From NCBI GenBank assembly GCA_947454745.1, contig CANGMV010000018.1, positions 1 through 10,561 of the forward strand: a DNA stretch of 10,561 bases, given 5' to 3'. The notes beneath the pieces were generated by a model. That model saw only the letters and a program-made list of their open reading frames with translations. It had not been told where the DNA came from and made no database searches. The first letter of the stretch is position 1, and each line of letters begins with the position of its first letter. The DNA is from Bacteroidota bacterium (GTDB lineage: Bacteria > Bacteroidota > Bacteroidia > Chitinophagales > Chitinophagaceae). Position numbers and translations under genes: made by a program. Below are positions 5,273 to 9,517 of the stretch, piece after piece.

Positions 5273-6466
5273 TTAACGGCTTAGGTTCATAGAACGTTCT
5301 TTGTATAAGGTTCTAAAGTAAGGATCATGTAAGTCTTTGATAAAGCGAATGGCTTCACCCGTACTCTTCATTTCTGGTCCTAATTCTTTATTGACACCTG
5401 GGAATTTATCAAAACTAAATACCGGCTCTTTTATCGCGTAACCATCTAGTTTTTTCTCCATGGTAAAGTCGGTAAGCTTGTTCACGCCCAACATGATTTT
5501 AGTGGCAATATTTAAATAAGGAATTTGATATGCTTTTGCAATAAATGGTGTTGTTCTTGATGCTCTTGGGTTGGCTTCAATTACATAAATTTTATCATCT
5601 TTAATTGCAAATTGAATATTAATCAATCCTTTGATATTTAAAGCTCTTGCAATTTTTTCGCTGTAAAATTCCATCGTCTCAACGATCAATGGAGTTAAGT
5701 TAAATGCTGGTAATACTGCATTACTGTCTCCACTATGGATACCTGCTGGTTCAATATGCTCCATCACACCCATCACGTGGAAAGTTTCTCCATCAAAAAT
5801 AGCATCCACTTCTGCTTCTTGACAACGATCTAAGAAATGGTCAATCAAGATTTTATTATCAGGGATATGTTTTAAGATACTTACTACTGAGCTCTCTACT
5901 TCGTCGTCGTTAATTACAATGCGCATTCTTTGACCACCAATTACATAACTAGGTCTTACCAATACAGGATAACCTACTTGGTTGGCTACTTCAATCGCTT
6001 CTTCGGCCGTGTAAGCAGTTCCGTATTGAGGGTATGGAATATTTAATTCTTTTAATAAATCACTAAAGCGACCTCTGTCTTCGGCAATATCTAAACTATC
6101 AAATGAAGTACCTATAATTTTAATACCTCTTTCGGTTAAGCGTTTTGCTAATTTTAAGGCAGTTTGTCCACCTAATTGTACAATCACTCCTTCGGGTTGT
6201 TCTAATTCGATAATTTCCCAAAGATGCTCCCAATATACAGGCTCGAAATATAATTTATCGGCCATGTCAAAATCGGTGGATACGGTTTCGGGGTTGCAGT
6301 TTACCATGATCGCCTCGTAACCGGACTCCTTAATGGCTAATAATCCATGAACGCAACAATAATCAAATTCTATACCTTGACCAATGCGATTAGGTCCACT
6401 TCCTAATACAATAATTTTCTTCTTTTTAGAGGGGATGGATTCGTTGGAGTTCAGCTTGTTGCTCAT
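5273..6466 (-). CDS. carB: Carbamoyl-phosphate synthase large chain, second synthetase half only (split carB)
   Basis: A 397-residue protein matching the carbamoyl-phosphate (second) ATP-grasp half of CarB, which phosphorylates carbamate to carbamoyl phosphate for pyrimidine and arginine synthesis. Features: pre-ATP-grasp domain with GSGPNRIGQGIEFDYCC (22-38), NCNPETVSTD (56-65) and GVIVQLGGQT (93-102); the ATP-grasp domain with RPSYVIGGQRM (171-181), MEHIEPAGIHSGDS (235-248) and the metal/ATP site NIQFA...IEANPRASRT (283-305). It ends soon after GPEMKSTGE (363-371), so the MGS-like allosteric domain is absent, as I recall for the large chain in this phylum. The whole first half of about 550 residues is also absent: upstream there are only 78 noncoding bases and then umuC. 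The NES(I)..KKKI lead-in resembles the inter-half linker of fused CarB. An ATG start at 6466 was chosen over a non-ATG extension to 6538 with no family-like residues. Confidence 0.88.
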   Translation of the reverse strand: MSNKLNSNESIPSKKKKIIVLGSGPNRIGQGIEFDYCCVHGLLAIKESGYEAIMVNCNPETVSTDFDMADKLYFEPVYWEHLWEIIELEQPEGVIVQLGGQTALKLAKRLTERGIKIIGTSFDSLDIAEDRGRFSDLLKELNIPYPQYGTAYTAEEAIEVANQVGYPVLVRPSYVIGGQRMRIVINDDEVESSVVSILKHIPDNKILIDHFLDRCQEAEVDAIFDGETFHVMGVMEHIEPAGIHSGDSNAVLPAFNLTPLIVETMEFYSEKIARALNIKGLINIQFAIKDDKIYVIEANPRASRTTPFIAKAYQIPYLNIATKIMLGVNKLTDFTMEKKLDGYAIKEPVFSFDKFPGVNKELGPEMKSTGEAIRFIKDLHDPYFRTLYKERSMNLSR

Positions 6467-6481
6467 AGGTATAAAATTGTG

Positions 6482-6489
6482 CAAAAATA
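6482..6489 (-). promoter_or_regulatory. Candidate -7 element for the carB half-gene
   Basis: On the minus strand this reads TATTTTTG, a full match to the Bacteroidota sigma-ABfr -7 consensus TAnnTTTG. It lies 15 bp before the carB ATG, which would give a leader of about 10 bases. No TTG -33 element is found at the usual spacing, so support is partial. It would let carB be transcribed apart from umuDC. Confidence 0.35.
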
Positions 6490-6498
6490 CGTTAGCCG

Positions 6499-6529
6499 AA
6501 CCATTTTTACGAATTTTTATAAAATGGTT
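6499..6529. repeat. Inverted repeat in the umuC-carB spacer
   Basis: AACCATTTT (6499-6507) is the exact reverse complement of AAAATGGTT (6521-6529), with a 13-base AT-rich loop. It lies just after the umuC stop codon and just upstream of the carB promoter candidate. It could be a weak umuDC terminator, although the minus strand lacks a clean U-run after the stem, or an operator for carB. Structure seen; role unknown. Confidence 0.4.
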
Positions 6530-6544
6530 TTCCACCAACTTTGC

Positions 6545-7831
6545 TTATTGAACGGCACAAAGCTCATCCCAGCGGGTGGTAAAGCGCTTGCTACGATTTT
6601 CGCTACGCATTTTCCAGTTTTTTTTGGTCCCGGTAGTGCCGAATTTGAGTACATCGTTCCTAAATGCAGCATTCATATTGTCAATAACATTCATTAGTTT
6701 TTTGCGTCTTACATCGGCGGGTGCGACAAATAAATTGATTTGCAGGGTATTATCAGGCACAAAATCGCTTACAATGACGCCAGCTTTTTTATACACTTCC
6801 CCTTCTTCAAATAAGGTTTTCCCAATGGCCACCGCCGCTTTGATAAGGTCGGGGGTGAGGTTACTGGGATTGTCGAGCTGAGTGAAACCATTTACTTGAC
6901 TGCCTCGCTGGTAATGGCTATACTCGGGCTGGGGTGGTAGCTTGCGTAATAAAAATACTTGCACGCGGCTTGCTGCACTATGCTGCCTTCGGAGTTTTTC
7001 GGCGCAGCGTGTTGCATAGGTAGCTAATGCTTCTTCTATTTCCTGCCATTCAGTAACCGGTCTTCCAAACATGCGCGTGGTAGCAATCATCTTTTTCTCG
7101 GTGCGTGGTGCTTGCATGCTGTGACTTTGCAAACCTTTTAACTCGCGTATTAATTTAATACCGGTAATGCCGCCTAAAAAACGTTTACCCCAACTTAGGT
7201 CCTTCATGCTTAATGCAAAAGCGGTATTCACTCCGTATACTTTTAATTTTTCACTATAGCTGTATCCAATGCCCCAAACATCTTCGATAGGTGTTTTTTG
7301 TAATGCAGTTTGTATTTTTTGTGTACTATCCAATACCACTACGCAGTTGGTTTGTAGTTTATTTTTTTTGGCTAAACGATTGGCTACTTTGCTTAATACT
7401 TTATTGGGTGCTGCACCTACTGACACCGAAATACCTGTCCATGTTTCAATCGTATTTTTTAAGTGGACGCAAAAATCATACACGTCATTATGGGCAATAT
7501 GATCTAAGTTTACAAAGGCTTCATCGACCGAATATACTTCTACGTGACCCGGTGGTAGCAAGGATCTCATGGTTTCCATCACACGCCAACTCATGTCGCC
7601 ATATAAATGATAATTGGAAGAGAAACATTGAATCCCAAATTGTTTAATTCTTTCTGCTTCCTGAAAATAAGGAGTTGCCATTCCAATGCCTAATGCCTTG
7701 GCTTCATCGGAACGAGACACAATACAACCATCATTATTACTTAATACAATAATGGGCGCGCGTAATAATTTAGGATCAAATAAACGTTCACAGGAACAAT
7801 AAAAACTATTACAATCAATAATCGCTTGCAC
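6545..7831 (-). CDS. umuC: Y-family DNA polymerase, UmuC type (Pol V catalytic subunit)
   Basis: A 428-residue translesion polymerase, close to the 422 residues of E. coli UmuC. The catalytic carboxylates are present: D6 in the DCNSFY motif and D103-E104 in YSVDEAF. Y11 occupies the steric-gate position. SNNDGCIVSR (31-40) and CFSSNYHLYGDMS (69-81) are UmuC-like finger/palm segments; VWGIG (185-189) marks the thumb helix-hairpin-helix. A clamp-binding sequence QINLF (364-368) lies in the C-terminal part, matching QLNLF in UmuC, so the protein should reach the beta clamp. The start codon is GTG at 7831 with no Shine-Dalgarno, as is usual in this phylum. It follows umuD by 53 bp on the same strand, so the two form an operon. 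No frameshift or missing catalytic residue was seen. Confidence 0.94.
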   Translation of the reverse strand: MQAIIDCNSFYCSCERLFDPKLLRAPIIVLSNNDGCIVSRSDEAKALGIGMATPYFQEAERIKQFGIQCFSSNYHLYGDMSWRVMETMRSLLPPGHVEVYSVDEAFVNLDHIAHNDVYDFCVHLKNTIETWTGISVSVGAAPNKVLSKVANRLAKKNKLQTNCVVVLDSTQKIQTALQKTPIEDVWGIGYSYSEKLKVYGVNTAFALSMKDLSWGKRFLGGITGIKLIRELKGLQSHSMQAPRTEKKMIATTRMFGRPVTEWQEIEEALATYATRCAEKLRRQHSAASRVQVFLLRKLPPQPEYSHYQRGSQVNGFTQLDNPSNLTPDLIKAAVAIGKTLFEEGEVYKKAGVIVSDFVPDNTLQINLFVAPADVRRKKLMNVIDNMNAAFRNDVLKFGTTGTKKNWKMRSENRSKRFTTRWDELCAVQ

Positions 7832-7884: not shown

Positions 7885-8328
7885 TTATAAACCGTGAATT
7901 ACATAGGTTACTACGCCCCATGTGCGATAGTCTTCCAAATGTTCAATATGTATGGCACCATATTTTTTATTTTCAGGAAATAGGGTAATGCTATGTGTTT
8001 GTATTTGTAGTCGGCGCACTAAAAATTCGCCATTTAAAATGGCTACCACCACTTTCCCCGACCTAGGAGGAATACTGCGGTCCACAATTAAAGTGTCTCC
8101 AATATGAATGCCCGCTCCCAACATGGCATCGCTATTGACCCTGAAGAAAAAAGTAGCTGGTTTATTATGAATGAGCTGCTCGTTTAAGTCGATACCTCTT
8201 TCCATAAAGTCGTCCGATGCGGCCCCAAAACCTGTTGCATTGGCCTGTACTATTTGACTAGATTGATAGTTTTTATTAATCTGTTGGGTGGCAATACCCT
8301 GGCTAGGATCTTGGTCGATATATTCCAT
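7885..8328 (-). CDS. umuD: UmuD-like S24-fold protein lacking the Ser-Lys catalytic dyad
   Basis: A 147-residue protein that aligns without gaps to E. coli UmuD from the cleavage region onward: GF at 33-34, the ERGIDLNEQLI segment (43-53), ATFFFRVNSDAM (58-69), GDTLIVDRSI (77-86), NGEFLVRRLQ (99-108) and the closing GVVTYVIHG (138-146). There is no helix-turn-helix, so it is not LexA. The nucleophile Ser that precedes Met in this family (S60 of E. coli) is Ala here (A68, codon GCC at 8125-8127). The general-base Lys (K97 of E. coli) is Arg (R105, codon CGC at 8014-8016). The protein should therefore be unable to cleave itself. The frame is intact and well conserved elsewhere, so it does not look like a decaying pseudogene. 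It is first in an operon with umuC and presumably folds as the polymerase accessory dimer. Confidence 0.9.
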   Translation of the reverse strand: MEYIDQDPSQGIATQQINKNYQSSQIVQANATGFGAASDDFMERGIDLNEQLIHNKPATFFFRVNSDAMLGAGIHIGDTLIVDRSIPPRSGKVVVAILNGEFLVRRLQIQTHSITLFPENKKYGAIHIEHLEDYRTWGVVTYVIHGL

Positions 8329-8371
8329 AATACTAAATTTATTAGCAATATTAGCTAAATAATTTAGTATT
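8329..8371. promoter_or_regulatory. Nested palindrome, candidate operator of umuDC
   Basis: Outer 11-bp arms AATACTAAATT (8329-8339) and AATTTAGTATT (8361-8371) are perfect reverse complements. Inside the 21-bp spacer lie a second inverted pair, TTAGC (8342-8346) and GCTAA (8354-8358), and a direct repeat ATTAGC. One outer arm touches the umuD start codon and the other lies between the proposed -33 and -7 boxes, as expected for a repressor site. The sequence is not the E. coli LexA box. The structure is certain; the regulator is unknown. Confidence 0.6.
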
Positions 8372-8375
8372 TCAA
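8346..8375 (-). promoter_or_regulatory. Candidate Bacteroidota promoter of umuDC
   Basis: On the minus strand a TTG (-33, at 8373-8375) is followed after 19 bases by TAATATTG (8346-8353), which matches the -7 consensus TAnnTTTG at all but one fixed position. Spacing fits the Bacteroidota sigma-ABfr pattern. The start site would fall near 8340, about a dozen bases before the umuD ATG, within the inverted repeat. Confidence 0.5.
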
Positions 8376-8425
8376 TGAATATTTTCTAGCTCCTATTTTG
8401 TACCTTGAGGGTCAAATTGTGCGTT

Positions 8426-9517
8426 ATGGATAAACCATTTTTTATTGACCCGAATATTGCGAGGGCAAAGACGATTGACACTAGTTTTTATTTGGAAACC
8501 AAGTGGTTAGAAGCCTCCAAGGAAAAAATATTTGCGCCTAGCTGGCAATATATTGGCCATACAGGCATGGTGCCCAAAGCGGGGGATGCACATCCTATTC
8601 AATTTTTAGAAAATTATATTAACGAGCCCTTGGTGCTAACGCGTGACGGGGACAATCATATTCATTGCTTATCCAATGTATGTACGCATCGTGGAAATTT
8701 AATGGTGTACGAACCTTGTAGTGCGCAAAAACATTTGCGTTGTAAATACCATGGACGTGCATTTCATTTGGATGGAAAATTTATTTCGATGCCAGAGTTT
8801 AAGGATGTAGAAAATTTCATTCCCGAAAACAATCACCTGCATCATTTACAATTATACCAATGGGGTCCTTTGTTGTTTACTCAATTGCAAAAGGGATTAG
8901 GTCCTGAATTATTTTTTAGAGAGATGGAAGAACGCATTGGTTGGATGCCGATTAATAATTTGGTATTTGATGCATCTCGTTCCAAGGATTATGATATTAA
9001 AGCCAACTGGGCATTGTATTGTGAAAATTATTTAGAAGGATTCCATATTCCATTTGTACATCCGGGATTGAATGCATTTTTGGATTTTAAAGATTATGCT
9101 ACGGAGACTTTTAAATATTCGAACCTACAATTGGGCATTGCAAAAGACGATGAGCATTGTTTTGACATACCAGCAGGCCATCCCGACGAAGGCAAGCGTA
9201 TTGCAGCTTATTATTTTTGGGTATTCCCGAACATGATGTTTAATTTTTATCCTTGGGGATTGTCTTTAAACGTAGTGCAGCCAGTAGCCGAGGGGCATAC
9301 CAAAGTAAAATTTTTAAGCTTTGTGTTTGATGAAAGTAAATTAGGCCAAGGTGCAGGTAGTGGATTGGATACAGTAGAAATGGAAGATGAAGAAGTAGTG
9401 CAATATGTACAAAAGGGCATACGTTCTCGCTTTTATCATTTTGGCCGCTATGCTACACAGCGTGAACAAGGCACACACCATTTTCACAGTTTGCTTGCCG
9501 ATTTTTTAAATCAATAA
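8426..9517 (+). CDS. Rieske non-heme iron oxygenase, alpha subunit
   Basis: A 363-residue ring-hydroxylating/choline-monooxygenase-type oxygenase. The N-terminal Rieske [2Fe-2S] domain has CTH (C86, H88) and CKYH (C106, H109). The catalytic domain has the mononuclear iron ligands H207 and H212 in ENYLEGFHIPFVHPGL, and a likely third ligand D321 (MEDEE). The residue three before the first His, which bridges to the Rieske centre of the next subunit, is Glu (E204) instead of the common Asp; a Glu there is known in the carnitine oxygenase CntA. The substrate cannot be told from this; quaternary amines are one option. No reductase or ferredoxin gene is adjacent, so electrons must come from elsewhere in the genome. 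The start is the ATG at 8426; an in-frame TTG at 8405 adds seven unlike residues. Divergent from umuD. Confidence 0.92.
   Translation: MDKPFFIDPNIARAKTIDTSFYLETKWLEASKEKIFAPSWQYIGHTGMVPKAGDAHPIQFLENYINEPLVLTRDGDNHIHCLSNVCTHRGNLMVYEPCSAQKHLRCKYHGRAFHLDGKFISMPEFKDVENFIPENNHLHHLQLYQWGPLLFTQLQKGLGPELFFREMEERIGWMPINNLVFDASRSKDYDIKANWALYCENYLEGFHIPFVHPGLNAFLDFKDYATETFKYSNLQLGIAKDDEHCFDIPAGHPDEGKRIAAYYFWVFPNMMFNFYPWGLSLNVVQPVAEGHTKVKFLSFVFDESKLGQGAGSGLDTVEMEDEEVVQYVQKGIRSRFYHFGRYATQREQGTHHFHSLLADFLNQ

Follow-up and report, generated by a model that had tools for sequence, protein, structure and literature searches.

In the textbook view, self-cleavage of UmuD acts as the safety catch on SOS mutagenesis. 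The N-terminal arm of Escherichia coli UmuD carries the hydrophobic stretch FPLF, and HumD of phage P1 is an analogue of the cleaved form, UmuD'. The scissile bond of E. coli UmuD is Cys-Gly (PMC8565304), and when the protein is made uncleavable by the S60A substitution UV mutagenesis is strongly reduced and cells are sensitised (PMC3901139, PMC5342242). The arm includes residues L17 and F18; the arms of the variant UmuD-3A (T14A L17A F18A) are only weakly bound to the globular domain, for which reason it has been called a UmuD' mimic, and an arm-truncated, uncleaved UmuD gives low but detectable mutagenesis (PMC5342242). One arm of UmuD' has been modelled inside UmuC, near the active site (PMC11791011). 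In Bacteroidetes, including the Chitinophagaceae, CTAA-N5-TTAG is the operator of a non-canonical LexA (PMC8565304).

Here we describe a umuD-umuC locus from a Bacteroidota bacterium of the family Chitinophagaceae (assembly GCA_947454745.1), carried on a stretch of 10,561 nucleotides, the window (contig CANGMV010000018.1). It resembles E. coli UmuD/UmuD' and Pol V (UmuD'2C-RecA) in family by sequence, umuD-umuC order, UmuC tail and the presence of SOS boxes, but its UmuD lacks the Ser-Lys dyad and has a different cleavage-site segment and an arm without the hydrophobic stretch. As a presumably uncut, full-length protein with an arm expected to be loosely held, it is reminiscent of UmuD-3A (PMC5342242); that protein was engineered in the laboratory, however, whereas dyad and arm of the window's clade were replaced by evolution. 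Self-cleavage is likewise unneeded in HumD and in two armless UmuDs of our sample (L136 and L182), yet in the window protein an arm is present and conserved. The S24 family also includes the non-canonical LexA of Bacteroidetes, which differs in having a helix-turn-helix domain and in keeping Ala-Gly, Ser and Lys, while UmuDAb of Acinetobacter is another UmuD gone in a new direction (PMC8565304). Missing UmuD dyads are not mentioned in the covered parts of PMC8565304, which deals with UmuD and with Chitinophaga. The components are thus known, but in the literature searched, which took in no supplements and few subscription papers, we found no description of a clade-wide, selected loss of the UmuD protease accompanied by a rewritten arm.

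Materials and methods

Relatives were gathered by searches of relatives, of the order and of the class, by a genome-contig scan (the best 80 of 92) and from 60 genome stretches, and an HMM search of the reading frames in these loci gave 228 UmuD-like rows. Membership of the window's clade was assigned from the motif [TAG][NDK]A[TN]GF, found in 157 of the 228 rows, 125 of them with different coding sequences; conservation of the motif segment is therefore partly built in, which does not apply to columns 68 and 105 or to the arm preceding the motif. Niastella yeongjuensis (L106) and Pseudoflavitalea (L096, L101) are among the clade members. Many rows are the same species from two sources, and 'different' refers throughout to identity of the coding sequence or frame. 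Counted among the 71 non-clade rows are L191, L193 and L194, which are repressor-like S24 proteins with Ser and Lys, as well as L184 and L186 (both Ala/Arg), which lack the motif yet fall with the clade in a quick tree. Three clade loci stand under other organism names in the titles of their MAG records (L046, Comamonas; L092, Sphingobacterium; L097, Sphingobacteriia). A more careful tree was built after removal of the trait columns and of 13 long or odd rows. The host genome of the window is 1.3 Mb and 57.7% complete.

Results

The umuD-like gene (7885..8328, reverse strand), identified from the list of open reading frames, profiles and alignment, starts with ATG and encodes a 147-residue protein of the S24/UmuD family with both catalytic residues replaced. 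On NF007621, the profile of the Pol V autoproteolytic subunit with a cut-off of 110, it reaches 134.6 bits, and it is by profile a member of Pfam Peptidase_S24 (PF00717, 81 bits). By sequence, its nearest solved relative is E. coli UmuD' (1umu, E 3.3e-20), in an alignment that covers residues 33-145 and sets A68 against the Ser of G-D-S-M and R105 against the first Lys of V-K-K. This confirms the initial annotation, which had read both dyad residues as substituted: on the reverse strand, Ala68 (GCC, 8125..8127) holds the position of E. coli Ser60, and Arg105 (CGC, 8014..8016) that of Lys97. The same annotation had the rest of the fold aligning to E. coli UmuD without gaps, which needs correcting, as the window protein has one extra residue shortly after R105. 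Active S24 enzymes have a Ser nucleophile and a Lys base; the window UmuD has neither, nor does it have the Ser-Lys dyad behind the word 'autoproteolytic' in NF007621. It is not a HumD, with 62 bits on NF051876 against a cut-off of 120 and a 32-residue arm before Gly33; on the LexA profile TIGR00498 it reaches 50.8 bits against a cut-off of 110.95 and matches positions 81-199 only, and a Pfam scan of the protein found no DNA-binding domain. Thr32-Gly33 (codons at 8230..8235, reverse strand) aligns with the Cys-Gly bond that is cut in E. coli UmuD, so the residue before the Gly is Thr here; 55 of the 71 non-clade rows have Ala.

Scoring of the Ser and Lys columns across homologues, the check proposed in the initial annotation, revealed that Ala/Arg is the common state of a whole clade rather than a one-off. 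Among the 125 different clade sequences, column 105 is Arg without exception, written with all six Arg codons; column 68 is Ala in 118, with all four Ala codons in use, and Ser in seven; and column 32 is Thr in 123 and Asn in two. Ser together with Lys occurs in none of the 125 and in 59 of the 71 different non-clade rows, the remaining 12 of which include L136, L182 and several rows on long branches. The best-scoring loci from Bacteroidia outside the order, the only ones taken from there (L207-L229, n=23), all have A-G, Ser and Lys. In the careful tree, the clade forms one side of a branch with 100/100 support, and the group labelled Ser/Lys on this tree also holds L136, which is Ala/Arg. A search of the class (395 genomes) placed all clade-like matches (E 1.2e-42 or lower) in the window's family, the next match following at 6.1e-32 and 40% identity. 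The clade was found in the Chitinophagaceae (family taken from named records), in which its UmuD was read in 43 of the 85 genomes of the order search; about ten unfetched genomes score similarly and others are without it.

The seven clade sequences with Ser and Arg were basal in the quick tree, which included the trait columns, but nested among Ala-Arg rows in the careful tree. In five of the seven, Ser is encoded by AGC, a codon that needs two changes to become one for Ala, which hints that Ser may have been retained in these members. S66 was tried as a replacement nucleophile and rejected, since its column is not conserved (Ser in 89, Gly in 35 and Asn in one of 125), making a stand-in role unlikely. 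Thr at the cleavage site is by itself no proof of a dead site, because six viral UmuDs with T-G (L247, L257, L264, L269, L292, L293) keep both Ser and Lys. L136 and L182, UmuDs of the canonical branch, begin at M-GFPSP without an arm and have Ala/Arg and Asn/Arg, respectively, in place of Ser/Lys; they appear to represent a second, armless route away from self-cleavage.

The N-terminal arm of the window UmuD (residues 1-31; 8236..8328, reverse strand) has been rewritten relative to canonical UmuD, as judged by arm comparison and dN/dS. A hydrophobic stretch, for example LPYV or IPFI, marks the canonical arms in our sample. A pattern for this stretch, composed after inspecting the sequences, matched 116 of 138 usable non-clade arms (and thus missed 22) versus none of 119 clade arms; 15 rows were excluded because they were too short or had no recognisable site. 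The clade arm is instead conserved in its own way: among 99 different arms, Lys is found at -10 in 97%, Tyr or Phe at -8 in 100% and Val or Ile at -3 in 100%, followed by the segment ANATGFGAA(A/S)DD. In clade proteins with their usual starts, the Gly at which UmuD' begins is preceded by 27-32 residues. Pooled over 44 window-type coding sequences, dN/dS was 0.079 for residues 1-22, 0.043 for residues 23-41 (the cleavage segment) and 0.074 for the remaining core, values that are rough because dS exceeds 1 and pairs are non-independent. On these data the new arm is under purifying selection and is not a remnant.

The partner gene, umuC (6545..7831, reverse strand), lies 53 bases after umuD, starts with GTG and encodes 428 residues, with D6, D103, E104 and the DUF4113 tail present; it scores 340 bits on NF002955, below the cut-off of 431. 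Each of the three residues is found in >97% of 87 UmuC rows. UmuCs beside clade UmuDs form one clan in a quick tree (44 versus 43 rows, 98% SH-aLRT) and have typical differences near the catalytic residues (S9 in 86%, C12, S39, V102) and in the tail, where R391 is present in 100% of the clade versus Gly in 98% of the others. A UmuC 51-88% identical to that of the window was present in 15 of 15 genomes with a clade UmuD, a set in which eight had been chosen for having no umuC seen beside umuD on the same strand; in some of the 15, umuC is divergent or lies elsewhere, at a distance of a few kb or of ~90 kb (G303) or on a separate contig (G233). A similar UmuC was found in none of 24 Chitinophagaceae genomes without a clade UmuD, of which G216 has a UmuC of 38% identity and G307 only a UmuD fragment. 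UmuD and UmuC of the clade are thus retained and lost together. The initial annotation held that dyad loss beside an intact UmuC reflects selection, not chance, a view borne out by the clade counts, codon use, dN/dS and UmuC residues.

Other genes occur around some of these pairs. In L142 (1061-1498) and L178 (825-1277), umuD and umuC are separated by an IS200-like (Y1_Tnp) transposase-type gene according to Pfam, and a similar gene was recognised by looking at the sequences in L156 (1928-2365), L091, L169 and L173; L178 showed no more than a fragment of umuC. A DUF559 (nuclease-like) gene occupies this place in L097 (3421-3804, by Pfam) and L105 (3489-3911). In loci with a divergent umuC, umuD is followed by a radical SAM gene, as in L165 (2113-3219, by Pfam) and, by sequence look, in L157 (185-1294), L143 (194-1291) and L175 (2538-3185, as second gene); this gene may be the SOS-linked SplB type of PMC8565304. 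In the window itself, the carbamoyl-phosphate synthase large subunit looks split: 5273-6538 (reverse strand) corresponds to profile positions 545-933 of 1052 and G000:C2:6663-8303, on another contig, to positions 2-545, and the C-terminal part was not found.

Two exact matches to CTAA-N5-TTAG (motif from PMC8565304) lie upstream of umuD, one at 8333..8345, four bases from the start codon, and the other at 8355..8367, versus 0.22 expected in the whole window; two or more occurred in four of 200 shuffles. Such a box lies within 120 bases upstream in 122 of 123 different clade regions versus 13 of 71 non-clade ones. As for the eight umuC copies not behind umuD, L324, L329 and L331 have their own box within 200 bases, the divergent umuD/umuC pair of L321 appears to share one, and no box was found within 200 bases of umuC in L323, L326, L328 and L330. 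The interval 8329-8404, which contains both boxes of the window, separates umuD from a Rieske-type oxygenase gene transcribed divergently (8405-9517, forward strand), and this gene may share SOS-box control with umuD. The initial annotation, right about the dyad, had noticed neither these boxes nor the clade-wide state and the replaced arm. It had also proposed a search of the host genome for a second umuD or a lexA with intact dyad; the latter was found, in one further S24 protein, LexA-like (L199), that by eye keeps AAAG, GDSM and VYKR, while no second UmuD was found in this 57.7% complete genome. Exactly two S24 matches were present in 29 of 41 genomes of the genus, the second having been read in the host's own genome only.

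Among mobile elements, 80 viral loci and four plasmid regions gave 85 rows, 83 of them with Ser and Lys (exceptions L267 and L268). A mobile origin of the clade UmuD was considered and rejected, with no clade-like copy among the plasmid, phage and viral-contig matches listed: none among 12 plasmid matches (the best of these at 52% identity), none among 12 matches from phages (63 records) and none among the best 80 of at least 335 relatives on viral contigs (the best of these at 50% identity). The UmuD fragment of G307 (L333, 738-1127, reverse strand) has Asn-Ser-Met and runs into an apparent transposase, presumably of the IS110 type.

Discussion

On balance, and by a modest degree, we favour the view that RecA-triggered self-cleavage has been abandoned in a Pol V variant of the Chitinophagaceae, its UmuD working uncut in the manner of UmuD' and its control lying in transcription, a reading drawn from comparison of sequences. 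The clade UmuD, without its dyad, would no longer cleave itself. Its arm lacks the hydrophobic stretch that holds the E. coli arm on its own globular domain and would therefore be unlatched, so that the full-length dimer could bind UmuC as UmuD' does. The ANATGFGAA(A/S)DD segment, perhaps along with the Lys/aromatic stretch before it, might then sit in the UmuC cleft near the active site. Mutagenesis would be controlled through transcription by a LexA-like repressor that has the dyad, and perhaps through RecA binding, with no need for UmuD to be cut. To the fuller scheme of a natural Pol V present across much of the Chitinophagaceae, in which cleavage was lost at the base of the clade, the new arm works uncut inside UmuC and transcription is the switch, we would give about an even chance. 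Several observations count against uncut activity, namely the 27-32 extra residues before the Gly of UmuD', which may not fit the UmuC cleft, the 22 non-clade arms that also lack the hydrophobic pattern, the seven members that keep Ser and the occurrence of T-G in viral UmuDs with a dyad. The E. coli S60A phenotype, too, indicates that uncut UmuD is not active by default.

The initial annotation had left three options, an active uncleaved form, cleavage in trans and a standing brake on UmuC; we favour the first, although none is proved and the S60A data speak against it. As a brake or checkpoint factor, an uncleavable UmuD would hold UmuC or other polymerases inactive and never act as an activator. 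E. coli S60A does lower mutagenesis, full-length UmuD is described as keeping UmuC from translesion synthesis (PMC3901139), and the conserved clade arm could fit a brake equally well; yet the clade UmuC is catalytically intact and was found in all 15 genomes with the clade UmuD and in none of the 24 without it, the hydrophobic stretch of canonical arms is missing, and a polymerase retained just to be inhibited would be hard to select unless something releases it. We regard such a brake as unlikely. Removal of the arm in trans, by a LexA-like S24 protein or a general protease, would yield UmuD' after all, and a partner whose active site is intact does cut the arms of E. coli S60A in trans (PMC5342242). 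The host's LexA-like S24 protein has A-G and both dyad residues, and the ANATGF segment is nearly invariant, but this segment belongs to the motif by which the clade was recognised, making its conservation partly circular. The site is T-G rather than A-G or C-G, albeit that the six viral UmuDs combine T-G with a dyad, and the two S24 matches typical of the genus, with no second UmuD in the host's own genome, also weigh against cleavage in trans, which we consider improbable.

It is very improbable that self-cleavage persists, with Arg as the base and another nucleophile, either S66 or the Ser68 of seven members: Ser does occur with Arg in these seven of 125 different coding sequences, but S66 is variable, and no clade member has Lys at 105. 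Least credible is decay, that is, a drifting gene whose residues at these positions are meaningless. Other rows without a dyad do stand on long branches (L185, L187-L190, L192, L195), but this reading is already contradicted by dN/dS of 0.04-0.08 in all three parts of the gene, by Ala and Arg kept through all their synonymous codons, by the SOS boxes upstream and by co-occurrence with UmuC.

If UmuD of this clade does work uncut, as we favour, the cleavage catch on SOS mutagenesis would be optional, and the Chitinophagaceae would offer a natural system in which the action of an uncut UmuD could be tested. The label of NF007621, 'autoproteolytic subunit', which the window UmuD earns by its score, would then be wrong in its key word for the clade.
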